Positions 10,978 to 36,920 of a DNA stretch of 38,162 nucleotides are shown here, piece by piece. Below the pieces are notes generated by a model that saw only the letters and a program-made list of their open reading frames with translations, did not search any database and had not been told where the DNA came from. The stretch's first letter is position 1. Each line of letters begins with the position of its first letter. The stretch comes from Lachnospiraceae bacterium (lineage in GTDB: Bacteria > Bacillota > Clostridia > Lachnospirales > Lachnospiraceae), in assembly GCA_017548765.1 (NCBI GenBank), contig JAFYZH010000087.1:1-38162 (forward strand). Direction: 5' to 3'. A program made the translations under genes and the position numbers.

Positions 10978-11008
10978 GTATGAGTGAACGCGCAGCATCC
11001 CGGCCCAA

Positions 11009-11402
11009 ATGCGCGTAAGGAAGCAAGCTCGGGTGGGTCGTTCTTACGCGCAAAACGGGCTAAACTGCCAAAATGCGCGTAAGAAAGCAGGCTCGGGGAG
11101 GTAGATCTTACGCGCAAAACAAGCTAAACGTCCAAAATGCGCGTAAGAAAGTAGCACTAGGCAGGGTAATCTTACGCGCAAAACGGGCTAAACTGCCAAA
11201 ATGCGCGTAAGAAAGCAAGCTTGGGGAGGTTGATCCTACGCGCAAAATGGGCTAAACTGCCAAAATGCGCGTAAAGAAGCAAGCATGGGGAGGGTAATCT
11301 TACGCGCAAAACGGGCTAACCAGCCAAAATGCGCGTAAGGAAGCAAGCTCGGGCAGGTTGATCTTACGCACAAAACGTACCAACCAGCCGAAATGCGCGT
11401 AA
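11009..11402. repeat. Array of 64-bp tandem units with internal inverted repeats
   Basis: The word ATGCGCGTAA starts at 11009, 11073, 11137, 11201, 11265, 11329 and 11393, an exact 64-bp period over six full units plus a partial seventh. Inside each unit TGCGCGTAAG is followed after about 23 bp by its reverse complement CTTACGCGCA, and a 21-bp linker (AAACGGGCTAAACTGCCAAAA-type) leads to the next unit. The array is therefore about 13 copies of one 10-bp word in alternating orientation, spaced about 33 and 31 bp centre to centre. The arms are the best conserved part (one arm in unit 4 reads CCTACGCGCA, one in unit 6 CTTACGCACA); the 23-bp middle varies more. There is no ORF and no cas gene, so it is not a CRISPR array. 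Confidence 0.92.
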
Positions 11403-15068: not shown

Positions 15069-15617
15069 TTGACGCTTTGTTTGATGGCGTTTGACACGCC
15101 GGCGGAGAAGAATTTATTTACCAAACTATACGAACGGTATCAGTACTACATGCTCTATCTGGCCAATGGTATCCTGCAGAACCACTCATTGGCCGAAGAC
15201 GCAGTTCAGGATGCATTTCTTACATTGACCCGCTATATGGACCGCGTAGAGGACGTGGAGTCCCCGCGCACCCGCAACTTTCTGGCGACGATCACGAAGA
15301 GCCGTGCCGTCGACTTGTTGCGAAAAGAGAAACGCTACATGGAGGCGGTCGACATCGATGACGAGAGCTACCGCATCGAGAGTAAGGAAGAGCAGCCGCT
15401 GGAGCAGTTGATCCGCGAGTCGGAGCATGCACAGTTGCGTGCGTGCATTAAAAAACTGACGCCGGAGCACCAAACCGTTTTGGAATTGAAATACGTACAT
15501 GGACTGAAGGAACGCGAGATCGCGGAGATCCTGGGTGTGCCGACGAAGACGGCCGGCATGCGGATCCTGCGGGCACGCGAGAAGCTTCGGGGCATGCTTA
15601 ACGGAAAGGAGGAGTGA
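15069..15617 (+). CDS. ECF-type RNA polymerase sigma factor
   Basis: The 182-residue protein has sigma-70 region 2 (LYLANGILQNHSLAEDAVQDAFLTLTRYM, about residues 29-57; RNFLATITKSRAVDLLRKEKR, about 68-88) and region 4 with a helix-turn-helix (LTPEHQTVLELKYVHGLKEREIAEILGVPTKTAGMRILRAREKL, about 132-176). Region 3 is absent, as in group 4 (ECF) factors. TTG at 15069 is chosen as start because GGGAGG at 15055-15060 has an 8-base gap to it, while ATG 15084 would be 23 bases away. A TTG start suggests low expression. It is followed after 3 nt by a putative anti-sigma factor, the normal pairing. No clear sigma-A promoter was found upstream, so autoregulation is possible. Confidence 0.9.
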   Translation: MTLCLMAFDTPAEKNLFTKLYERYQYYMLYLANGILQNHSLAEDAVQDAFLTLTRYMDRVEDVESPRTRNFLATITKSRAVDLLRKEKRYMEAVDIDDESYRIESKEEQPLEQLIRESEHAQLRACIKKLTPEHQTVLELKYVHGLKEREIAEILGVPTKTAGMRILRAREKLRGMLNGKEE

Positions 15618-15620
15618 GTC

Positions 15621-16577
15621 ATGATGAGTGAAGACGAATTAATGAAACAGGCGTTGGAAGACGAACTGGAAGATTCCTATCAGGAGTACCTGACGTATGC
15701 GCTGAAAGGCGAAACGCAGGACCTTATGCAGACGAGCTCCGAATTCCGCCATAATATGGAGGCGATGTGCCGGGAGGCTGAGAACACCGAATCCAAGGTC
15801 GTTCAGGTAAAGCCGAAAAAGAATAAACTCGCTTTCCGCGTGAAACTCATTTCCGGCCTGGCTGCCGCGGCTGCCGTGATCCTGCTTTGTGTTGCCGGCG
15901 TGAGTATGCTCAATAGAGGCTTGGTGTATGAGGATAGATCTGACAGCCAAAATCTGATCGCACAGAATGACCCTGAACAGAACATCAGAGAAGAATTCGC
16001 TGCAGGCACGAAAGCGATCACGGCAGATATCACGGGCGATGTACCGGAGGGAGATAAGAAAAACGGATACGACCAGCTGACAGATCACCAACCCTATCCT
16101 GCAGTCGCAGCCGAAACAAGCACAGGATCGAAAACTCAGACCGTGGAAAGCATGCTCTATCGTACGGAATTTGTTGCGCTGCAGAAGGAAAATGAAGAGA
16201 ATAACGCAGTTGACGGCTTACCGGGCAGCGAGAGCAGCCACCTTAGTTTGAATCCGACCCGAAGGGCTGATCATGGTGGCGGAACCTTTTCCAATGATGG
16301 TGGCTCAGATCCGGCGGAGGGTTTGCCGGTACAGATCGAGGTATTCCTCGCCGCTGATGATGGCGTCGTACCGTCGAAGATCCTCGCACTCTATGTGGAA
16401 GGCACCCGCGTATCATTTTCCGAGACCTCAAGGCAGGAGCAGGTGGATGGCGCCCTGGTCCAGCTGGAATATCGAGAGACATCCGATCAGGAAACAGCGC
16501 CGAAAGAAGGCCGAAACATCATCCTGATCGTGCTCTACGGGGACCGACGGCAGATCCTGCTTTATCGCATCGTGTAA
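15621..16577 (+). CDS. Putative membrane-bound anti-sigma factor
   Basis: This 318-residue protein has a cytosolic N-terminal part (residues 1-74, acidic then basic KPKKNKLAFRVK), a single TM segment at about 75-96 (LISGLAAAAAVILLCVAGVSML) and an extracellular part of about 220 residues without recognised domains; the last 100 residues look beta-rich. No zinc-binding HxxxCxxC motif is seen. The role is inferred from topology and from its place 3 nt behind the ECF sigma gene. AGGAGG lies 8 bases before ATG 15621; a second ATG follows at 15624. Confidence 0.65.
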   Translation: MMSEDELMKQALEDELEDSYQEYLTYALKGETQDLMQTSSEFRHNMEAMCREAENTESKVVQVKPKKNKLAFRVKLISGLAAAAAVILLCVAGVSMLNRGLVYEDRSDSQNLIAQNDPEQNIREEFAAGTKAITADITGDVPEGDKKNGYDQLTDHQPYPAVAAETSTGSKTQTVESMLYRTEFVALQKENEENNAVDGLPGSESSHLSLNPTRRADHGGGTFSNDGGSDPAEGLPVQIEVFLAADDGVVPSKILALYVEGTRVSFSETSRQEQVDGALVQLEYRETSDQETAPKEGRNIILIVLYGDRRQILLYRIV

Positions 16578-16621: not shown

Positions 16622-16668
16622 AACGCTTGTGTACGGTGGTTTCCGTCCGCAAGCGTTATTGCTTTTTC
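16622..16668 (+). terminator. Terminator of the sigma/anti-sigma unit
   Basis: AACGCTTG pairs with CAAGCGTT across a long loop (itself containing ACGG/CCGT), followed by ATTGCTTTTTC. The next promoter begins at its end. Confidence 0.75.
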
Positions 16669-16697
16669 TTGACTTTTTCGTCTCAAAATTCTATAAT
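16669..16697 (+). promoter_or_regulatory. Promoter of the five-gene membrane operon
   Basis: TTGACT at 16669-16674 and TATAAT at 16692-16697 with a 17-bp spacer, close to sigma-A consensus. The leader is about 40 nt. The operon is therefore separately transcribed from the ECF sigma pair. Confidence 0.85.
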
Positions 16698-16744: not shown

Positions 16745-17374
16745 ATGGTATACGATAAAGGTACAGTAGCAACTCAGGGACCGTCCGTAGCAGATCTGGA
16801 GAAGGACCTGAATTATTATAGGACCGAGTTAGAGGTCGTACAACTGAAGAAGGCAGAAGCGATCACGTATTCCTTGAAGATGGCAGTGCTGGTCGTAGTC
16901 GCATTGGCCCTCACGATCCTCGCGGATAGAATGATGAAGAAGAATGAGGCCTTTCATATTCCGGGCGTCATGCTCATCGTATTTTGCGTCGCGGCGATCG
17001 GGTTCGGCATGCTGATGCTGATCGTGCGGGTACCCATGATCGTATCACAGCGTCATGTGGATACCGGCGTGATGATGCATCCGGCTGCGTTGAAGCATGA
17101 CTATGAGTGCATCATCATGGAAAAGGAAAAGCTTCTGGCGCAGGCGAAGGAGAGAGAAGAGCAGATCGCCTTCAGTTCGGAAGCGCGCGAGATCGAATTC
17201 GAGGCGGAGCGTCAGATGGCGGCTGCCGAATATGGTTTCGGCCAGAACCTGCAGTTAGGGGACGAAAGCGGGATCTCCGAGGACGACACATTCGGACTGA
17301 CCATTTCGTTGGAAGATGCGCTTTCCGAGATCGATAGTTTTACGGAAGAAGAGGAAGAAGTAACAGCGGAATAA
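16745..17374 (+). CDS. Membrane protein 1 of the LEDA-motif operon
   Basis: I do not recognise this family. The 209 residues comprise an N-terminal predicted coiled coil (about 15-43), TM1 (about 44-62), a short outside loop of about 12 residues, TM2 (about 72-94), a long charged cytosolic helix (about 110-170, EKEKLLAQAKEREEQIAF...EAERQMAAAEYGF) and a linker. It ends with GLTISLEDALSEIDSF at about 184-199 and an acidic tail. Both ends are predicted to be cytosolic. The C-terminal motif is almost identical to that of the third gene in this operon and similar to the ends of the other three. It is the first gene after the promoter at 16669; the next gene follows after 20 nt. Confidence 0.85.
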   Translation: MVYDKGTVATQGPSVADLEKDLNYYRTELEVVQLKKAEAITYSLKMAVLVVVALALTILADRMMKKNEAFHIPGVMLIVFCVAAIGFGMLMLIVRVPMIVSQRHVDTGVMMHPAALKHDYECIIMEKEKLLAQAKEREEQIAFSSEAREIEFEAERQMAAAEYGFGQNLQLGDESGISEDDTFGLTISLEDALSEIDSFTEEEEEVTAE

Positions 17375-17394
17375 GGTTCATCAGGGGAAATAAA

Positions 17395-18045
17395 ATGGCG
17401 ATTTTAGGGGATCGTGTTGCGCAGCAACAGTATTTGATACGCAAGGAGGCACTGGATAAACAGGAGTTCGCGCTTAAAGACGCCGAACGGGAACACCGTC
17501 GATATCGTATGTGGTTCATCGCAAGCCTGATCATCATGTTGGGCTTGTATTATCTGACAAACATACAGGACGTCTTCGAGATCGAGAAGGTTAAGAAGGA
17601 TGACTCCATGGAGTATGCCCTGTTCATGGGCGGTTTCACCATGGTGTTGGTATGGGTCTATGTGACCTATGCCTTGATCCTGTTCTTCGGTGTGATCGCA
17701 TGTGTAGGTTTGTATCGCACGTTGGTCGTGCGGGATGGAGTGGACGGACGCCGGATGTTTTATGTGGCGTATGTCAAACTCCAAAAACAACGGATCCTGC
17801 AGGCTCGTGAGGCGATGGTCGAACAGAAGAGCCGCGCCCGCGAGGAACGGGAGCGCGCCGAGATGGCGACGAAACTGCAGATGGACAGTTTCATTGCGAT
17901 GAAGAACCGCAATGACGGACAGATGGTGACGGAAGACCTGAAACCGAAGGCGGACGGCATTGCCCGCGATTCCAACGGAAACCTGGTCATCCCGATCGAG
18001 GACGCGATACGCTCCATCTATGGTGAAGACGACGATTTAGAGTAA
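17395..18045 (+). CDS. Membrane protein 2 of the LEDA-motif operon
   Basis: The family is unknown. The 216 residues have the same plan as gene 1: N-terminal basic/coiled segment (QQQYLIRKEALDKQEFALKD), TM1 at about 39-57, an outside loop of about 22 residues, TM2 at about 80-107, a cytosolic charged helix (LQKQRILQAREAMVEQKSRA then REERERAEMATKLQ) and a C-terminal motif NLVIPIEDAIRSIYGEDDDLE-type at 196-216. The motif differs from gene 1 by Pro for Ser before the hydrophobic-Glu-Asp-Ala core. Spacing to the third gene is 15 nt. GGGGAAATAAA before ATG is a modest ribosome binding site. Confidence 0.85.
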   Translation: MAILGDRVAQQQYLIRKEALDKQEFALKDAEREHRRYRMWFIASLIIMLGLYYLTNIQDVFEIEKVKKDDSMEYALFMGGFTMVLVWVYVTYALILFFGVIACVGLYRTLVVRDGVDGRRMFYVAYVKLQKQRILQAREAMVEQKSRAREERERAEMATKLQMDSFIAMKNRNDGQMVTEDLKPKADGIARDSNGNLVIPIEDAIRSIYGEDDDLE

Positions 18046-18060
18046 GGGGATGTGGATAGA

Positions 18061-20151
18061 ATGGATGAAACCGGTATAAGCAAAGCCGAACAGGTCACCC
18101 TGCTAAAAGGGCTGATCGAAGAGGGGGTCCGGCAGAAGAGAGAGATAGTTTTCAAGCACCGGGAAGCATTCGAAGAGATGCTGCGCTATGGTGTCCTGAT
18201 CGCATTTCTCATCAGTATAGGATTGGTGAGCATTCTCCGGGATGCTCTGGTCTCCCACGGACTCAAATCCAGGGATGCGACCAGTCTGGTCGCCGGGCAT
18301 TTGCTCGGAGGCTTTTTGGATATTTTCTTTTTTATCATTGCTATCGTAGTGATCGCTTTCGGATGCATGTTTTTGCGTGCTTTTTCGAAGTATGCGAGCC
18401 CGATCCGCATGAAGGACGGGACCGAGCTGTCCTTTAAGGAGGCGGCTGCAGCGATCGACAGCCAGACCAAAAGAAATTTCCGGAAACTCATCGAGATCCG
18501 CCAGGGCATGACGCCCGCGGAAGCGGATGCCTCACGTATAGAACCGTATCGTTTTGACACGGTAAATACGGGATATTATACGGATGCGGTGCGTTTGACC
18601 GTCCCTCAGATCGAGAAGAATAAAGGGGAGATAAATGAACGCCGGGAAAATGTAGTCCGTGACCTGGATGAGATCCGGGTCCACCGGAAAGCGAACATGC
18701 AGTTGATGATCATCGCGACCGCGGCTGCTGTTGCATCCCGTATCCTGGACGGCCCGATCGCTAACTTTTTACCGACCGAGTTTTGGAAGATATGGATGGT
18801 GCTCTCGTACCTGATCTTCTATGCGGGCATCATTTTCGCGGTGTTTTACGGTATCCGCTTTCTTTACGAGAGGAAGGATAACCGTATGATCTCGTCGATC
18901 ACATTGATCGACCGGTATGAGACTACGATCGAAAACTATAACTACCTTCTTACAGACATTGAATTCATGCTGGTCTGCGCACAGAGACGTAAAGATCCTT
19001 CATGGAATAAGCCCGTGATCGATGTTAACGAAACGAAGACGATCTCCATGGCCGAACTGACCGAGGCGGTCGCTGAGGCTGAAAGTGCATGGCAGGCATC
19101 GAAGGATGAGGTCCGGTCCGGCTCTATGAACGGGGCTGAACCCAAAGCTGCCCAAAAGGAGAATCCATACGATCTTTCCTATGGCAGCGCCAATATCGAT
19201 ATAGGTCTTTCCGGCTCATTTGCCGCATCCGGGGCAGAGCCGATCGATCTTATGCCGGGCATGGGAAGTCCGGCGAGTCCGCAGGAGCGTAAAGACGAGC
19301 CTTCCGGTGTGCAGGAAGAGGGCGATGTCGAGCGCACGGCGCCGAAGGCAGAAGAGCCTAAAGCGGTTGAAGAAGCGGATACGATCGATGCAGCAGAAGC
19401 GATGTCCGAAGTGAAAACCGAGGAACAGAGCGAAGAAGAGATCGCTGCGGAAGAGAAGAAAAAACTGGAGGAATATATGCGGGATTTGAAGAAAAGGGCA
19501 CAGGAAGAAGCAGAGTTTTCTGCTGAGTTGGAAAACGAGATGGAGAGGATCCGTCGGATGCCACAGGAGGAGATCGTTGAAGAAAAAACGGAAGCTCCGC
19601 AGCATCCGGCCAGCAGCAATCTGTTCTATTATCCGACTGCGGATTCACGTGAGCAGTCACCCTACGTGGAGCAGGAAGAAGCAGGAAACAGTTATATCAA
19701 TCATTCCGCTCATGCGGCAGCGGAACTGGCGGGAGATGAACCCGCAGCATTCCGCCATCGCACAGGCGGTGAGAAGGATAAATACAACTATGACGGCCGT
19801 CCGAAGAAGTCGACGGTACTCCGTCGGGCAGCCATGTCGTCCGATCAGGATCCGGTAGCACCTGTAGAGGTTTCTGAGCAGGAGATCCCGATCCGTCCCG
19901 CGACGGAAGAGCCGAAGGAAGAAGAGAAGAAAGCCAGCCTGCGTACCAGCGACGAATTCACGTCGACCATGACCGAGCATATCCGTTCCCTTCAGGAAGA
20001 GTATGGGAAGAAGGAAACCGGTTCGCTCGATCTCAGGAACGCTTCGACCGGGGAGGGGTCGCACGTTCGCATGGACCGTGATCAGGGTCTTACCATTTCG
20101 CTGGAAGATGCGCTGAAAGACCTCGAGTCATTTACAGACGACGAGGAATGA
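18061..20151 (+). CDS. Membrane protein 3 of the LEDA-motif operon (double hairpin, long acidic tail)
   Basis: The family is unknown. This is the largest member (696 residues). It contains two TM hairpins, about residues 44-59 with 83-105 and about 218-235 with 247-268, each followed by a charged helix, so it looks like two copies of the module of its neighbours fused. Residues from about 360 to 670 are strongly acidic and low in hydrophobics (many EEKK, AEEPK, EETE runs), probably disordered and coiled-coil in part. It ends with GLTISLEDALKDLESFTDDEE at 676-696, nearly the same as gene 1. A related-looking segment TISMAELTEAVAEAE occurs after the second hairpin. AGGGGA at 18045-18050 lies 10 bases before ATG 18061, which is preferred over GTG 18052. 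Confidence 0.85.
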   Translation: MDETGISKAEQVTLLKGLIEEGVRQKREIVFKHREAFEEMLRYGVLIAFLISIGLVSILRDALVSHGLKSRDATSLVAGHLLGGFLDIFFFIIAIVVIAFGCMFLRAFSKYASPIRMKDGTELSFKEAAAAIDSQTKRNFRKLIEIRQGMTPAEADASRIEPYRFDTVNTGYYTDAVRLTVPQIEKNKGEINERRENVVRDLDEIRVHRKANMQLMIIATAAAVASRILDGPIANFLPTEFWKIWMVLSYLIFYAGIIFAVFYGIRFLYERKDNRMISSITLIDRYETTIENYNYLLTDIEFMLVCAQRRKDPSWNKPVIDVNETKTISMAELTEAVAEAESAWQASKDEVRSGSMNGAEPKAAQKENPYDLSYGSANIDIGLSGSFAASGAEPIDLMPGMGSPASPQERKDEPSGVQEEGDVERTAPKAEEPKAVEEADTIDAAEAMSEVKTEEQSEEEIAAEEKKKLEEYMRDLKKRAQEEAEFSAELENEMERIRRMPQEEIVEEKTEAPQHPASSNLFYYPTADSREQSPYVEQEEAGNSYINHSAHAAAELAGDEPAAFRHRTGGEKDKYNYDGRPKKSTVLRRAAMSSDQDPVAPVEVSEQEIPIRPATEEPKEEEKKASLRTSDEFTSTMTEHIRSLQEEYGKKETGSLDLRNASTGEGSHVRMDRDQGLTISLEDALKDLESFTDDEE

Positions 20152-20196
20152 GCAATCTTATAGGAAAATGAAAAAACGGGAATTGAAACAAGAAGC

Positions 20197-20829
20197 ATGA
20201 ATTTGGATTACGCTAAACATCAACAAATGATCCGCGAAACGCATGATAAGCTGGTGGATCATGAAGAAGAGTATTCGAGTGCGGTAAAAACGCACGAAAA
20301 ACAAACCCATAACATACTGATGTGCACGATCGCGATCGTCGTATTGCTGGTCGTCACGGGCATCTTCCGGTTAATGGATGATGGTGTGCAAAGCTACGAT
20401 AAAAAGAACGTAGTCGGCGTGGCCGGGGAGATGACCCTCATCGGGTATGGACTGACATCGGTCGCCAAATACATAATGTACGCCGGCATCATTGTCCTGG
20501 GAGTCATTATCATCATCAACCTGCGGAGGCGGTTTTTCTACATCGATCCGGTCAGCCGTGACCGACAGAGTTACGCGCAGTTCGTGGTCCTTCAGGAGGA
20601 AGTGATCCGAAGACTCCGGGCGGAGGAGAAGAAACTCGAAGAAGAGGCGAGGGCCATGGAGCAGGCTGCGAAGCAGGCAGCATTGACCGAAGACAAAAAG
20701 ACGTTCGGAGACCGGCCGGAGGAGAACTTGTTTTCCGAGACCGGCGTGATGGACGGGGTCAGCAATACCGATGGAGATCTGGTGTTATCCATAGAAGATG
20801 CATGGGATAGCATCCGAGAGGAGGAGTAA
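20197..20829 (+). CDS. Membrane protein 4 of the LEDA-motif operon
   Basis: The family is unknown. The 210 residues have an N-terminal helix (HQQMIRETHDKLVDHEEEYS), TM1 at about 39-58, an outside loop of about 28 residues, TM2 at about 88-108, then RRRFFYIDPVSRDRQSYAQF and a long charged helix (EEVIRRLRAEEKKLEEEARA). It ends with DLVLSIEDAWDSIREEE at 194-210. The segment after TM2 aligns with that of gene 5 (RRxF..YDP...Y), direct evidence of shared ancestry between these two. The gap from gene 3 is 45 nt with no terminator, and the ribosome binding site (AAGAAG) is weak. Confidence 0.85.
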   Translation: MNLDYAKHQQMIRETHDKLVDHEEEYSSAVKTHEKQTHNILMCTIAIVVLLVVTGIFRLMDDGVQSYDKKNVVGVAGEMTLIGYGLTSVAKYIMYAGIIVLGVIIIINLRRRFFYIDPVSRDRQSYAQFVVLQEEVIRRLRAEEKKLEEEARAMEQAAKQAALTEDKKTFGDRPEENLFSETGVMDGVSNTDGDLVLSIEDAWDSIREEE

Positions 20830-20830
20830 T

Positions 20831-21433
20831 ATGAAAATCAACAAAAGCAATCTGAAAGATGTCGATCTGCAACGTATCAAGAAGATGGTCTCGAACCTTG
20901 AGATCGCGCGCGTAGAGATCAAAAAGAACCGCGTCAGGGAGATCTTCCGTGTAATTTTCTACGTTGTGCTCGTATTTGCGCTTTTCTTCTCTTGGGCTGT
21001 TTCGGACTACATGGACGAATATCGCCAAAATGATATGGCTTTTGTGGCCAATATGTTCGGCACATTGATCATTATTCTTTTGATCGCCCTCGTGGTGATG
21101 ATCATCATGACCGTCCGCCGTATCTTCGTCGTTTACGATCCGTACAACAACCAGTGGTTGCGGTATGAACACGTTATCAAGAAGTACGATGAGAAGATCA
21201 AGAGACAGCAGATGATCCTGGACCTGGCAGAAGGTAAGAAAGTATCTGCCGAAGGCCTGAATGAAAACGGTGAGAAACTCAATGTGGAGATCCTCAACCA
21301 GGAGCTGGACGAACCGGTGAAGGAATGGAAGATCTTCGAGGAAGAGGGCGAGGTCATTTACGAGGAAGTCATCCATGATTCCACGACGATGTCGATGGAA
21401 GAGGTGGCCGAACTGCTTCGCGAGGATGATTGA
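20831..21433 (+). CDS. Membrane protein 5 of the LEDA-motif operon
   Basis: The family is unknown. The 200 residues start with a basic helical N-terminus (DLQRIKKMVSNLEIARVEIK), TM1 at about 40-58, a short outside loop, TM2 at about 74-95, RRIFVVYDPYNNQWLRYEHV and a charged helix (KKYDEKIKRQQMILDLAEGK). It ends with TTMSMEEVAELLREDD at 185-200, the most diverged version of the shared C-terminal motif. GAGGAGG just upstream and a 1-nt gap from gene 4 support ATG 20831 and tight translational coupling. It is the last gene before the rplM promoter; no terminator is evident between them. Confidence 0.85.
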   Translation: MKINKSNLKDVDLQRIKKMVSNLEIARVEIKKNRVREIFRVIFYVVLVFALFFSWAVSDYMDEYRQNDMAFVANMFGTLIIILLIALVVMIIMTVRRIFVVYDPYNNQWLRYEHVIKKYDEKIKRQQMILDLAEGKKVSAEGLNENGEKLNVEILNQELDEPVKEWKIFEEEGEVIYEEVIHDSTTMSMEEVAELLREDD

Positions 21434-32232: not shown

Positions 32233-32504
32233 TCTGCTGTAAGGTTTGAGGTTAATTGGGGGATTATATAAGTGAGGGCATATGGATATTTGCCATGTGC
32301 AAAATAATAGGCTGGCATCCGCCTATGGAATGCTACAATCTATTTAATTAGGCGTATTTTTGTGAATTGGGTTGTAAATTACAGTAGTATATGATACACT
32401 TATAGGAGCTGTGGGGAACGGGGAAGCCCCTATGTGTGCGTGTGAAAATCGGGAAGAGGGACCGAGAGTTAGGAGAATAATGCGCGAAGGTGCGTTATTA
32501 TAGT
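32233..32504 (+). promoter_or_regulatory. Duplicated regulatory region, copy B: promoter and structured leader
   Basis: TTGTAA at 32372-32377 and TACACT at 32395-32400 (17-bp spacer), with TATATAAGTGAGGGCATAT at 32265-32283 and the leader from AGCTGTGGGGAACGGGG (about 32408) to AATGCGCGAAGGTGCGTT. Copy A and B differ in parts but keep pairing in the AATGCGC stem (A: CGCATT; B: GTGCGTT with GU pairs) and in the GGGG/CCCC stem, so the RNA structure seems to be selected. Confidence 0.8.
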
Positions 32505-32558
32505 TGTTTTCGGAGCGCATCGAAAACAAGAAAAACTTTATACTTAGGAGGAAAAGAA

Positions 32559-35500
32559 ATGAAACAGTCAAACGCTCTGAATAGAGCTAGAGTGTCCGTT
32601 TTGGCAGTGATCGTTCTCGTGTTGACGGTATTCGGCGTGAACCAAGTTGATGCAGCATCAACCATTAACGTAACATTTTCACAAAGCGGCGGAACGAGCT
32701 CGACGTATTCCAGAGATCCTTCGTTTTCACTTGAGAAGAGTGCTGGTTGGATTACAATCAGTACGTCGTCACCATCCAATTTTACGATCAAGGCATCGAG
32801 CAATACTACTGGCAAGGGACGTATCGGCTATGTATACGTGAAAAGACAGGGATCGGTTGTCACCACGTATAAGATCGTTCAGTCGGGTTCCACGAACCTC
32901 AGTGTTGGTATTGCAAAAGGAAGTACATCGACCTATGGTAAGAATTCGAACCAGTCGATTTCTGTCAGCGGCAGCTGGATCACGATCTATCGCCCGAATG
33001 ACTATAATTTCCGTATCGATTATTCGGCGAACACGACCGGAAGCACTAGAACTGGTTACGTGTATGTAAAAGAAGACTCGACGACATTTACCACGTATAA
33101 GATCACACAGAGTTCTTCCGTTACGGTTACATATGACAAAAATGGCGGCGGTTCGAGTTTTACCCGGACGATCTCCTATGGAAGCACCTATGGAAAAGTC
33201 GATAACCCGACCCGGACCGGGTATAATTTCGCTGGCTGGTATACGGCTAAATCTGGTGGAACTCAGGTAACAGAAACCACGAAAATGACCAGCACAGCAA
33301 ACCATACGCTGTATGCTCACTGGACGGCGAAGTCATATACGGTTTCCTTCAACAGTCAGGGAGGCACCTCGGTTTCTTCCAAAACCGTGTACTACGATGG
33401 CACCTATGGATCTTTGACCAATCCGACAAAGACTGGTTATACCTTTGCGGGCTGGTATACGGCAGCTAGTGGCGGCAGTCAGGTTATTTCTTCTACGAAG
33501 GTAACTCTCACTGCTAATCAGGTATTGTATGCGCATTGGACGGCAAATAGTTATACAGTGTCTTTTAACAGCCAGGGCGGTTCCTCTGTATCTTCGAAGA
33601 CGGTAACCTATGGAAGTAAATACGGAACCTTAAGCAGTCCCACAAAGACCGGATATACGTTTGCGGGTTGGTACACGGCGGCCAGCGGCGGAAGCCAGGT
33701 TAGCTCTTCAACTACGGTATCGACTGCGTCTAACCATACTGTATACGCGCACTGGACGGCAAATAAGTATACCGTGACCTACGATAAAAATGGCGGTAGC
33801 GGAGATAATTATTCCCGGTCTATCGCATATGGAAGCATATATGGAAAAACAGACAACCCGACTCGGACCGGATATACATTTACAGGTTGGTATACTGCTA
33901 AGTCCGGCGGAAGCCAGGTAACAGAGAGCACCCTTATGTCTACAGCGAATAACCACACGCTGTATGCACGATGGGTAGCAAAGACATATACCATTACATT
34001 TATCAGTAATGGCGGAACTACCGTGTCTTCCAAGGTTGTGACCTACGACAGCACCTACGGGTCATTAAGCAGTCCTACGAAGACCGGCTATACATTTGCA
34101 GGGTGGTTTACGGCTACAAGTGGCGGAAGTAAGATTACTTCGTCCACAAAGGTAACGATCACAGCAAATCAGACATTGTATGCGCATTGGACAGCAAATA
34201 ACATTACTGTGACCTATGATAAGAATGGTGGTTCCGGATCGAATCTTACCCGTTCGATCGCGTATGGAAGTAACTATGGAAAGGTAGATGACCCTACAAG
34301 AACCGGTTACACATTTAAAGGCTGGTATACCGCGAAGACTGGCGGAAGCCAGATCACGGAAACAACAAAAATGACCAGTACAACAAACCACACGTTGTAT
34401 GCACGATGGACGGCGAAGACATTTACGATCTCTTTCAGTAGTCAAGGCGGCGGTGCAGTATCTGCTAAAACAGTAACCTATGACAGCACCTACGGAGCAT
34501 TGGTTACTCCGAATAATGCAGGTTATGATTTTGCCGGTTGGTACACAGCAGCGAGTGGCGGTACTCAGGTCAAAGCCGATACCAAGGTAGCGATCACAGC
34601 GAACCAGACATTGTATGCGCACTGGACGCCGAAGAAACTTACGATATCCTTTGACAGCCAGGGCGGCTCTTCCGTATCTGCGAAGTCTGTGACCTTTGGT
34701 GACACCTACGGAACGTTACCGACGCCCACAAGAGCAAATTATACTTTTAATGGCTGGTATACTGCTGCGTGGGGAGGAACCAAGATTGCGGATACAACCA
34801 AGGTGACCGTCACAACTAATCAGACGCTGTATGCACTCTGGACGGGAAAAAAGGTTACGGTTACCTATGATTTGAATGGTGGAGATGGAGATAATCTCAT
34901 CCGTTCAATTGAATATGGAAAACCCTATGGAAAAGTCGGGGATCCGACTCGGACCGGTTATGAATTCCATGGATGGTACACATCGAAAACGTATGAAACT
35001 CAGGTGGTTGAAACTACGATTATGTCTACGGCTAAAAACCACACTTTGTATGCGAAATGGACCCCAAAGACATATACAGTAACTTTTAAGAACGGCGATA
35101 CCATCGTTTCGACAAAAAAAGTTGCATATGATAGTACGTATGGTACCATGCCTTTAGTGACGAAGACTGGACATGATCTGGTTGGATGGTATACGGCGGC
35201 GAGCGGTGGCAGTAAAGTTACTACTTCCACAAAAGTAAAGCTTACGGCAGATCAGACTTTGTATGCTCGATGGACCCCAAAGACGATTACGATATCTTTC
35301 GATAGCCAAGGTGGAAGTGTAGTTGATAATATTACGGTAATCTATGGCAATACATATGGGGAATTACCTGTTCCTGAATTCGATGGATATATCTTCGATG
35401 GTTGGTTTACGGAAAAAAATGGGGGAGATCGGGTTACTGAATATACAAAAGTGAAGTGCAGTGACTGGCAGACGTTATATGCGAAATGGACTGCTAAATC

Positions 35501-36920
35501 CAAGATTACTTTCAAACTTCACACGGATCCAATATTGGAAAAATATGCCCCTTATACGCGAATAATAGGAGATACATTCGGAACGCTCCCCCCTAAGCCT
35601 TCAATATCTCCTGAAGGATATATATTTGATGGATGGTATACAGAAAAGGAAGGCGGGAAGAAACTTACTCCGGATACTATTGTTACTTCTTCCATGAAAG
35701 ATATGTATGTACATTGGAAACCCAGAGACTGGACACCGGATAATTGGTCTCCAGCGCCGATAAAGGTGTTGATCATCAAATTTGATCCACTCATGGTTTC
35801 TGAAAGTGGAGAACCTCTTATTACGAAAAAGGGAAAAGCAATTAGACTACACGATTTGATGGAAACCATGGATCTAGAGAGAAAGACATATCTAGGCAAG
35901 TGGCATGATCCAGATCAACTTGCCGAGGACTTTGCGAAAGCAATGAAAGAAGTAAGCTCGGGATACGTTGAATATGATATTGTTGATAGTGTTACCCTTG
36001 AAGAGTTGCCGATGAGTACCCAAAACAGGCCCGGAAAGACGGAAAAAGAAACAAAGAATAATCCTCCGATGCAGTATTCTATTTCAGAGTATTTTGAGGC
36101 CTTTAAACAGGCATGCGGAAATGATGGTAATTATCCCGCTTACGGGGGATGGATTGATACAGGTTTTTCGTTTGACTATGATAAGTATTTCACGCAATTG
36201 AACGTATACGACAGGGTAAATCGTGGAGAAATTGATGAAGTGTGGATCTTTGCTGGGCCTTGTGCTGGTACAACACTTTGTGAGTCTATGATGACTGGTA
36301 AGGATGCGTTTTATTTGAACGGTTCTCCGTTAGTGAAGGCAGGACAAAGAAATTTCGTTACCTACGGTTTCAGCTACGAAAGAGACATTGACTGTATGCT
36401 GGAAGACGCAGGCCATCGAATGGAATGGACCATGAGCAGGGTTTATTCTGGCGTATCTAGATCGGATTGGGTAAATCCGGGCTTCGATATCAAAAAAGAT
36501 AATTATATAAAGAGCTATGACCGGAAATACGGGAAGACAACGTACAAGGATTATTCCGAACTAAATGCTTGGGAGAAGTTCTGGGCGCATGATCTTGTAA
36601 CGGATGGCAAAATCACTGCAGGTGTAGGTAGTGTTCATTGCGGCCCGAATGCGCGTGGTCAATATGACTGGAATAATAATGGAGGATATTTCGAAAAAAA
36701 GGAGCGTGATACGCCTATCAAAGTTGAGTCGTATTGCGATGATTGGTTCGATTATCCCTATCTTGCTGAGAATGCAAGGGAAATAGGCAGTGATGAATGG
36801 GAAGGAAATATAATAGGCCACCACAAGTGGTGGTTAAAACATATCCCTCGTGCGGGGGGAACTACGTATGGCAAGTACAATAACTGGTGGAAGTACTTTT
36901 TGTTTGAAGACCTAAAGTAG
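32559..36920 (+). CDS. Very large secreted protein: BACON-like domains, 12 InlB B-repeats, unusual C-terminal domain
   Basis: The 1453-residue protein starts with a signal peptide (SVLAVIVLVLTVFGVNQVDA, cleavage near residue 30). Residues about 30-185 hold two BACON-like domains (IGYVYVKRQGSVVTTYKIVQSG and TGYVYVKEDSTTFTTYKITQ segments). Residues about 187-1055 are 12 InlB B-type repeats of about 72 residues, with the last diverged. Residues about 1060-1453 are a separate domain with DEVWIFAGPCAGTT, FVTYGFSYERDIDCMLEDAG, HRMEWTMSRV, GVGSVHCGPNARGQYDWNNN, SYCDDWFDYPYL and HHKWWLKHIP, rich in His, Asp and Trp; I cannot name it. No LPXTG anchor is present. AGGAGG at about 32547 fixes ATG 32559; the longer upstream frame is leader. 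Confidence 0.85.
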   Translation: MKQSNALNRARVSVLAVIVLVLTVFGVNQVDAASTINVTFSQSGGTSSTYSRDPSFSLEKSAGWITISTSSPSNFTIKASSNTTGKGRIGYVYVKRQGSVVTTYKIVQSGSTNLSVGIAKGSTSTYGKNSNQSISVSGSWITIYRPNDYNFRIDYSANTTGSTRTGYVYVKEDSTTFTTYKITQSSSVTVTYDKNGGGSSFTRTISYGSTYGKVDNPTRTGYNFAGWYTAKSGGTQVTETTKMTSTANHTLYAHWTAKSYTVSFNSQGGTSVSSKTVYYDGTYGSLTNPTKTGYTFAGWYTAASGGSQVISSTKVTLTANQVLYAHWTANSYTVSFNSQGGSSVSSKTVTYGSKYGTLSSPTKTGYTFAGWYTAASGGSQVSSSTTVSTASNHTVYAHWTANKYTVTYDKNGGSGDNYSRSIAYGSIYGKTDNPTRTGYTFTGWYTAKSGGSQVTESTLMSTANNHTLYARWVAKTYTITFISNGGTTVSSKVVTYDSTYGSLSSPTKTGYTFAGWFTATSGGSKITSSTKVTITANQTLYAHWTANNITVTYDKNGGSGSNLTRSIAYGSNYGKVDDPTRTGYTFKGWYTAKTGGSQITETTKMTSTTNHTLYARWTAKTFTISFSSQGGGAVSAKTVTYDSTYGALVTPNNAGYDFAGWYTAASGGTQVKADTKVAITANQTLYAHWTPKKLTISFDSQGGSSVSAKSVTFGDTYGTLPTPTRANYTFNGWYTAAWGGTKIADTTKVTVTTNQTLYALWTGKKVTVTYDLNGGDGDNLIRSIEYGKPYGKVGDPTRTGYEFHGWYTSKTYETQVVETTIMSTAKNHTLYAKWTPKTYTVTFKNGDTIVSTKKVAYDSTYGTMPLVTKTGHDLVGWYTAASGGSKVTTSTKVKLTADQTLYARWTPKTITISFDSQGGSVVDNITVIYGNTYGELPVPEFDGYIFDGWFTEKNGGDRVTEYTKVKCSDWQTLYAKWTAKSKITFKLHTDPILEKYAPYTRIIGDTFGTLPPKPSISPEGYIFDGWYTEKEGGKKLTPDTIVTSSMKDMYVHWKPRDWTPDNWSPAPIKVLIIKFDPLMVSESGEPLITKKGKAIRLHDLMETMDLERKTYLGKWHDPDQLAEDFAKAMKEVSSGYVEYDIVDSVTLEELPMSTQNRPGKTEKETKNNPPMQYSISEYFEAFKQACGNDGNYPAYGGWIDTGFSFDYDKYFTQLNVYDRVNRGEIDEVWIFAGPCAGTTLCESMMTGKDAFYLNGSPLVKAGQRNFVTYGFSYERDIDCMLEDAGHRMEWTMSRVYSGVSRSDWVNPGFDIKKDNYIKSYDRKYGKTTYKDYSELNAWEKFWAHDLVTDGKITAGVGSVHCGPNARGQYDWNNNGGYFEKKERDTPIKVESYCDDWFDYPYLAENAREIGSDEWEGNIIGHHKWWLKHIPRAGGTTYGKYNNWWKYFLFEDLK
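33118..35723 (+). repeat. Intragenic tandem B-repeat array with ABB pattern
   Basis: Twelve repeat units of about 72 codons end in LYAHW or a variant. Two classes alternate: A (TYDKNGG...TRTGY.F.GWYTAK...NHTLYA.W) and B (SFNSQGG...KTGYTFAGWYTAASGG...ANQTLYAHW). In order they read ABB AB ABB ABB plus one diverged unit. Confidence 0.88.

Follow-up and report, generated by a model that had tools for sequence, protein, structure and literature searches.

A five-gene operon (g1 to g5) lies at positions 16745-21433 on the forward strand of a 38,162-nucleotide contig from a Lachnospiraceae bacterium (JAFYZH010000087.1), the whole of which is called the window here. It encodes membrane proteins, four of which (g1 to g4) share a short C-terminal motif, the tail. 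Across six genomes, all from one rumen genus of Lachnospiraceae, the order of the genes and the promoter are conserved, the tails are constrained and the motif is rare outside the operon. The reading that we tentatively favour, with a little less than even confidence, is that the five proteins form a heteromeric membrane platform whose arms would offer a docking helix to one shared cytosolic site. The genes, and one internal site that resembles the motif, are as follows.

16745..17374, forward strand: g1, 209 amino acids (aa); one transmembrane (TM) hairpin (42-60, 75-93), an acidic arm and the tail GLTISLEDALSEI with an acidic end; tail significant in the matrix and hidden Markov model (HMM) tests.
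17395..18045, forward strand: g2, 216 aa; one TM hairpin (39-57, 83-101) and the tail GNLVIPIEDAIRSI; paralogue of g4; tail significant by the matrix test, not by the HMM test.
18061..20151, forward strand: g3, 696 aa; two hairpin domains, a long and mostly disordered arm with conserved islands, and the tail GLTISLEDALKDL; tail significant in both tests.
19021..19083, forward strand: motif-like site within g3, KTISMAELTEAV, 3' of the second hairpin domain; not significant.
20197..20829, forward strand: g4, 210 aa; one TM hairpin (39-57, 89-107), a small beta hairpin and a coil, then a disordered stretch before the tail GDLVLSIEDAWDSI; tail significant in both tests.
20831..21433, forward strand: g5, 200 aa; one TM hairpin (38-56, 75-93) and the tail STTMSMEEVAELL, whose resemblance to the others is not significant.

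Five consecutive open reading frames (ORFs) on one strand were found exactly where the earlier note on this DNA had placed them, with intergenic gaps of 20, 15, 45 and 1 bases from g1 to g5. The start of g3 appears more likely to be the ATG at 18061 than the GTG at 18052, because the sequence AAGGGG is better spaced from it and because in the loci L013, L014 and L015 the frame has no start codon before this ATG. Similarly, the ATG at 20831 is the more likely start of g5, rather than 20798. All five genes occur together in 6/6 genomes, the operon being split over two contigs in genome G005.

The aligned tail cores read LTISLEDALSEI in g1, LVIPIEDAIRSI in g2, LTISLEDALKDL in g3, LVLSIEDAWDSI in g4 and TTMSMEEVAELL in g5, next to KTISMAELTEAV at the internal site of g3. 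They follow the pattern S/P-x-E-D/E-A/V, and the ends are mostly acidic. Each protein was scored with a matrix derived from the other families, against 235 background proteins and 20,000 shuffles. The tails of g1, g2, g3 and g4 were each matched by 0/235 background C-termini and by 0/20,000 shuffles. Under a stricter test, a left-out HMM run on 994 ORFs, g1, g3 and g4 were recovered with expectation values (E) of 0.019, 0.0095 and 0.0057, and neither g5 nor the internal site of g3 was. The latter, of the TISM type, is present in all five aligned orthologues. The motif had been described in the earlier note as terminating all five proteins; it stands above chance in g1 to g4, but the tail of g5 is indistinguishable from chance. 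The shared motif is therefore supported by both tests in g1, g3 and g4, by one test and by paralogy with g4 in g2, and is unsupported in g5.

Conservation of the tails across genomes had been set beforehand as a test, and all five were found in 6/6 genomes of the genus, with none missing. The alignments A3, A4 and A5 cover five of the six genomes, g3 of G005 being split over two contigs; the g4 and g5 tails of that genome were read separately and agree. The ratio of nonsynonymous to synonymous change (pN/pS) in the 12-residue core is 0.195, 0.064, 0.024, 0.131 and 0.035 for g1 to g5, against 0.374, 0.173, 0.387, 0.351 and 0.071 in the preceding 40 residues, while synonymous change (pS) is ample (0.36-0.64). 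The tail cores of g1 to g4 thus form a constrained island after a loose arm and change more slowly than the arms. The whole g5 protein is conserved (pN/pS 0.103), which leaves little contrast between its core and its arm. At the internal site of g3 the ratio is 0.197, compared with 0.350 in the arm behind it.

The motif is also rare. A profile of the tail gave 38 matches in the six genomes, 36 of them at the operon sites (6 per genome); the search for other proteins carrying the tail, suggested in the earlier note, thereby returned just two poor matches outside the operon (E 0.87 and 1.09). Over 397 genomes of the family, 17 outside the genus showed one weak match each (E 0.001-0.05), and these were never clustered.

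A common plan of N-terminal helix, two-TM hairpin and charged helix had been proposed for the five proteins. In all of them an N-terminal stretch and the C-terminal part are charged and at least one TM hairpin is present, but g3 is not a two-TM protein. By hydropathy, g1, g2, g4 and g5 contain a single hairpin each and g3 contains two (41-59, 81-99 and 215-233, 244-262). The last 60 residues bear a net charge of -6 to -18 across the five proteins, and both protein ends would lie on the inner, cytosolic side of the membrane. AlphaFold models, single-chain and restricted to g3 and g4, were computed from 5 and 11 sequences, respectively, and predict the fold and the helical tail at low confidence. 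In the g4 model, a long helix runs into TM1 and TM2 comes next; a small beta hairpin and a coil then lead to a disordered stretch, after which the chain closes with a helix at 199-209. In the g3 model, a helix-hairpin-helix unit occurs twice, and the arm after these units, about 330 residues long, is mostly disordered, with predicted helices at 453-499 and 620-649; helices are also drawn at the internal motif-like site (330-348) and at the tail (681-689). Both tails are thus modelled as short helices after disordered stretches. Apart from the tail, there are conserved islands in the g3 arm, for example PQHPASSNLFYYPTA and GGEKDKYNYDGRPKK (14/15 columns invariant in five genomes).

According to the platform reading, constitutive transcription of the operon would supply a set of membrane anchors with both ends inside and short outer loops, which may assemble into a heteromeric platform, its hub being the double-hairpin g3. 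Each anchor would extend a stalk and an acidic flexible arm into the cytosol, with an amphipathic helix at the end. This terminal helix, whose caps are S or P and E-D/E, could be the docking peptide that one shared cytosolic site recognises, and the presence of several copies per complex would make recruitment multivalent. A flexible acidic arm, a constrained capped helix, its repetition on one transcript and its rarity are together what is expected of a docking peptide displayed on one platform. Our inference covers four points: a single complex, binding by the tails, one cytosolic partner and membership of g5 in this arrangement. A docking or assembly tag was the proposal of the earlier note as well: the conservation of the tail in the genus, the slow cores of g1 to g4 and the rarity of the motif elsewhere speak for it, whereas the chance-level tail of g5 and an operon without a partner gene keep it conditional. 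A more specific version is possible but doubtful, namely a lineage-specific membrane organiser in which a multi-subunit hairpin scaffold would present the same terminal helix in multivalent form and thereby cluster one cytosolic protein, the g3 hub adding the docking islands HPASSNLFYYPT and GGEKDKYxYDGRPKK.

Several points weigh against the platform reading. The evidence base is six genomes of a single genus, and no orthologue was found outside it in the sampled profile scans, so that conservation is testable within the genus only. The 12-residue core was chosen by eye ahead of testing, and the tail profile was built from the operon sequences themselves, whose recovery is therefore by construction, only absence elsewhere being informative. 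The tail of g5 falls within chance (8/235 C-termini, 46/235 whole proteins and 983/20,000 shuffles), as does the internal site of g3 (7/235, 50/235 and 697/20,000, respectively), and g2 was not recovered when the stricter HMM test was applied. The likeness of the g2 and g4 tails stems from descent of the whole protein and need not imply a common partner, and the operon holds no extra partner gene. Lastly, the AlphaFold models are poor, with a mean predicted local distance difference test score (pLDDT) of 53 for g3 and 63 for g4, and of about 53 and about 47 in the blocks with the tail helices.

The main rival, which we consider rather improbable, is that the tails are assembly tags for the members of the platform itself, binding another tail, a stalk or an N-helix, and that no outside partner is involved. 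Confinement of the motif to the operon in the six genomes, barring the two poor matches, is consistent with it, and so is the absence of an extra gene from the operon. The same holds for the numbers in g3, where two hairpins go with two motif-like sites while the single-hairpin proteins have one each, although the second g3 site is not significant alone. However, the tails follow acidic, largely disordered arms that are suited to reaching away from the membrane. Packing of the tails is neither shown nor excluded by the single-chain models, which are too poor for this.

Kinship among the five proteins brings in a second alternative, that they are old duplicates which inherited the tail as a C-terminal element and kept it for stability, without a common partner. 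The earlier note had them diverging outside the motif, which is partly the case, but g2 and g4 are full-length paralogues: between genomes, blastp aligns them with E 1.9e-12 to 1.5e-5, their likeness extends over most of the protein including the tail, and hhalign still matches them without the tails (E 7.2e-9, reversed control 0.1). Tail-less profiles of g1 and g2 also match (E 6.6e-5, control 0.0095), and weaker matches pointing the same way link g4 with g5 (E 6.9e-4, control 0.0071) and g3a with g5 (E 1.2e-3, control 0.22). On the other hand, the closest sharing of the tail is between g1 and g3. Their profiles match over 46 columns of the tail region and nowhere else (E 9.9e-8), and no match links their hairpin domains once the tails are removed (E 0.024 and 0.23). 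The tail is thus kept or shared apart from the body, which weakens descent without a common partner, as does the greater change of bodies and arms compared with the tails; we regard this alternative as unlikely. Finally, recognition of the tail by a protease, a chaperone or a membrane-insertion factor, rather than a role in the working mechanism, would suit its C-terminal position, its acidic end and its conservation in proteins of one transcript, but is very unlikely, since such a signal is expected on other proteins too and the six genomes gave just the two poor matches (no degron or chaperone-tag library was searched).

The sequences upstream of the operon contain four features.

15069..15617, forward strand: extracytoplasmic function (ECF) sigma factor, an upstream neighbour outside the operon; Pfam Sigma70_r2 and r4.
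15621..16577, forward strand: single-TM protein 3' of the sigma factor, probable anti-sigma; no family over cut-off.
16622..16668, forward strand: terminator-like hairpin (AACGCTTG...CAAGCGTT) with a T-rich run, read from the sequence, after the ECF sigma pair and before the operon.
16669..16697, forward strand: sigma-70 type promoter of the operon, TTGACT-17-TATAAT, matching 11/12 consensus positions; both hexamers identical in 6/6 genomes.

The strong promoter of its own that had been attributed to the operon was thus found, near consensus and with invariant hexamers. The stem of the terminator-like hairpin is largely preserved in 6/6 genomes, and the hairpin is absent from the pattern-scan list. 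Because this hairpin precedes the conserved promoter, transcription of the operon is probably independent of the ECF sigma pair. The single-TM protein is probably the anti-sigma of the adjoining sigma factor, as judged from its position and its TM segment. The probable pair (window 15069-16577), just upstream, is preserved across the genus: both genes are found in the window, L011, L012, L013 and L015, and the L014 contig ends before them.

On its upstream side the operon directly adjoins the ECF sigma pair and on its downstream side either rplM or a Tad locus, part of the window ORFs having been scanned. The genes rplM-rpsI follow directly in G000, G001, G002 and G004, and rplM has its own full-consensus promoter (12/12). 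In G003 and G005 a Tad locus intervenes between g5 and rplM. In G003 it comprises Pfam-named genes for TadZ, a TadA-type ATPase, a prepilin peptidase, a TPR/WG protein, a DUF6382-FHA protein, a PP2C and a kinase, next to genes that we take from sequence and order to be TadB, TadC and TadE-like. The FHA, PP2C and Ser/Thr kinase genes of this locus are accompanied by one for a 2,491-aa immunoglobulin-like surface protein. Tad pilus loci were located at L013 2-7189, L031 1219-17982 and L043 1735-10693. A role of the operon as a Tad pilus component was rejected, the two being adjacent in only 2/6 genomes and the link missing in 4/6. In G004 a Tad locus with a 98%-identical TadA sits on another contig, and in three of the six genomes the only such ATPases found elsewhere are TadA of 51-53% identity or more distant ones. 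In six loci of other genera (L126-L131), no run of two-TM genes was seen next to the tadZ-like gene. The Tad locus is accordingly treated as a neighbour in some species and not as part of the system.

Other elements were observed further away. About 6 kb upstream of the operon lies a gene that is presumably RelA-like. Between this putative synthetase gene and the next gene, a minisatellite of 64-bp units occurs in two genomes (window 11003-11402, 6.2 copies; L011 1651-2144, 7.7 copies), its unit containing the inverted pair TTACGCGCAA / TGCGCGTAAG. A 1,476-aa protein encoded at 32490-36920 of the window has 12 matches to Listeria-Bacteroides (Flg_new) repeats as well as BACON domain matches. 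Downstream of rpsI in one congener (L012 974-5192) there are four similar lipoprotein-like genes with one other gene interspersed; the one tested matches DUF6273.

Relatives of the five proteins were sought in samples of the family, each including members of the genus: 180 genomes for g1, 250 for g2 and g4 together, 180 for g3 and 200 for g5. The best relative of g5 outside the genus, a weak one, is a 197-aa two-TM protein of another Lachnospiraceae genus (G121, locus L038). It has the same TM2, DP turn and IKK-D-IK helix, but is encoded by a stand-alone gene, differs at the N-terminus and is without the tail. Both proteins touch DUF5305, g5 with 21.8 bits and the tail-less relative with 16.1 (cut-off 29). 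Many matches obtained with this relative as query are frames of about 300-320 residues that we presume, from length and topology, to resemble CorA transporters. Several other matches were discarded. The G038 match of g1 (E 8.3e-4) falls within a gene that is presumably DnaK-like by its sequence, four of the five g1-profile matches in other genera were opened and are coiled-coil proteins beside a presumably coaD-like gene, and the G179 match of g5 is presumably an ATPase of the ATP-binding cassette type. The combined g2 and g4 profile gave candidate matches in G075, G167 and G256 (E 0.0017-0.0086). A scan of named genomes with two short g5 peptide patterns, by which only close relatives are detectable, returned five loci, all from the same congeners (Lachnospiraceae bacterium UBA1201, RGIG7058, RGIG8251 and RGIG7973, and uncultured Clostridiales bacterium RUG508), three of them from sheep or water-buffalo rumen. 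As regards a mobile origin, no g2 relative was found in viral contigs or phages (two short peptide patterns only in the viral scan) and no g3 relative in plasmids.

The earlier note's view that the operon contains no enzyme gene agrees with the library searches, in which no Pfam or NCBIfam family, enzyme or other, reached its cut-off for any of the five proteins. Its statement that no described system resembles them fits as well: Pfam, NCBIfam, PADLOC and PHROGs gave sub-threshold or weak matches only, which fall mostly on TM or coiled-coil stretches. A sequence search of the PDB returned no match for the g2 profile and two for that of g3 (E 0.69 and 0.84), and Foldseek with the g4 model returned nothing at E <= 0.001. 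No paper describing such an operon was found in literature searches for it, its candidate families or its mechanism, as judged by titles and the beginnings of abstracts. Two NCBIfam families, presumably of Mollicutes origin, were rejected as lying far under their cut-offs (60 bits for MSC_0882 and 275 for MAG1210). MSC_0882 is matched weakly by 6/11 g2/g4 members (best E 8.6e-5), g2 scoring 17.4 bits; MAG1210 is matched by 5/11 (best E 0.017) and also touches 4/5 g5 members (best E 0.0044). The MSC_0882 model gives similar E-values in 17/291 genomes of the class, none over cut-off, which is the level of noise. The type VII secretion protein EssA was likewise rejected, g4 reaching 16.9 bits (E 0.0061, residues 12-60 only) against a Pfam cut-off of 24.1.

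Three known systems invite comparison. SLATT domains are two-TM domains of nucleotide-linked conflict systems, and their succession of helix, TM hairpin and cytosolic helix recalls the operon proteins. These gave no Pfam SLATT match at E up to 1 and no PADLOC match at E up to 0.1, and NCBIfam SLATT_1 is touched by 1/11 g2/g4 members (E 0.058). As regards a nearby gene for a nucleotide synthase, SLOG or TIR protein, the direct neighbours are those listed above, among the window ORFs scanned, and the presumably RelA-like gene stands about 6 kb upstream. A closer analogue of the proposed working principle is AmaP, a small membrane protein which anchors Asp23 at the inner face of the Staphylococcus aureus membrane and is encoded in one operon with it (PMC6954212). 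The NCBIfam AmaP model is touched by 5/5 g5 members (best E 0.0035); the match of the window g5 spans the TM hairpin but has 14.9 bits against a cut-off of 55. The operon differs from this in having five anchors with a terminal motif and no recognised partner gene. No Asp23-like gene was recognised by eye among the operon ORFs or the direct neighbours, neither an Asp23 profile nor a search of the remaining genome having been applied.

Chemoreceptors provide the third comparison. Several membrane proteins of one cell bear the same C-terminal pentapeptide for CheR/CheB (PMC7390727). The likeness, a mechanistic analogy only, lies in one short C-terminal peptide on several membrane proteins recruiting a shared cytosolic protein. 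The operon proteins have no chemoreceptor signalling domain and no large outer domain, and their motif is longer and different; Pfam and NCBIfam found no methyl-accepting chemotaxis protein (MCP) signalling domain in the five. The tails read S/P-x-E-D/E-A/V and not xWxxF, the form of the pentapeptide. If the membrane-organiser version is true, the operon would encode a system for recruitment in bacteria whose sequences bear no recognisable relation to those of any described one. Its tails, short and easily synthesised, could serve to fish out the partner and so give a function to a gene set that the searched family libraries leave unnamed. Recruiting membrane anchors are known singly, as with AmaP, or with a shared terminal peptide, as with chemoreceptors; here a whole operon, in every genome of the genus examined, seems to be organised around one terminal motif.

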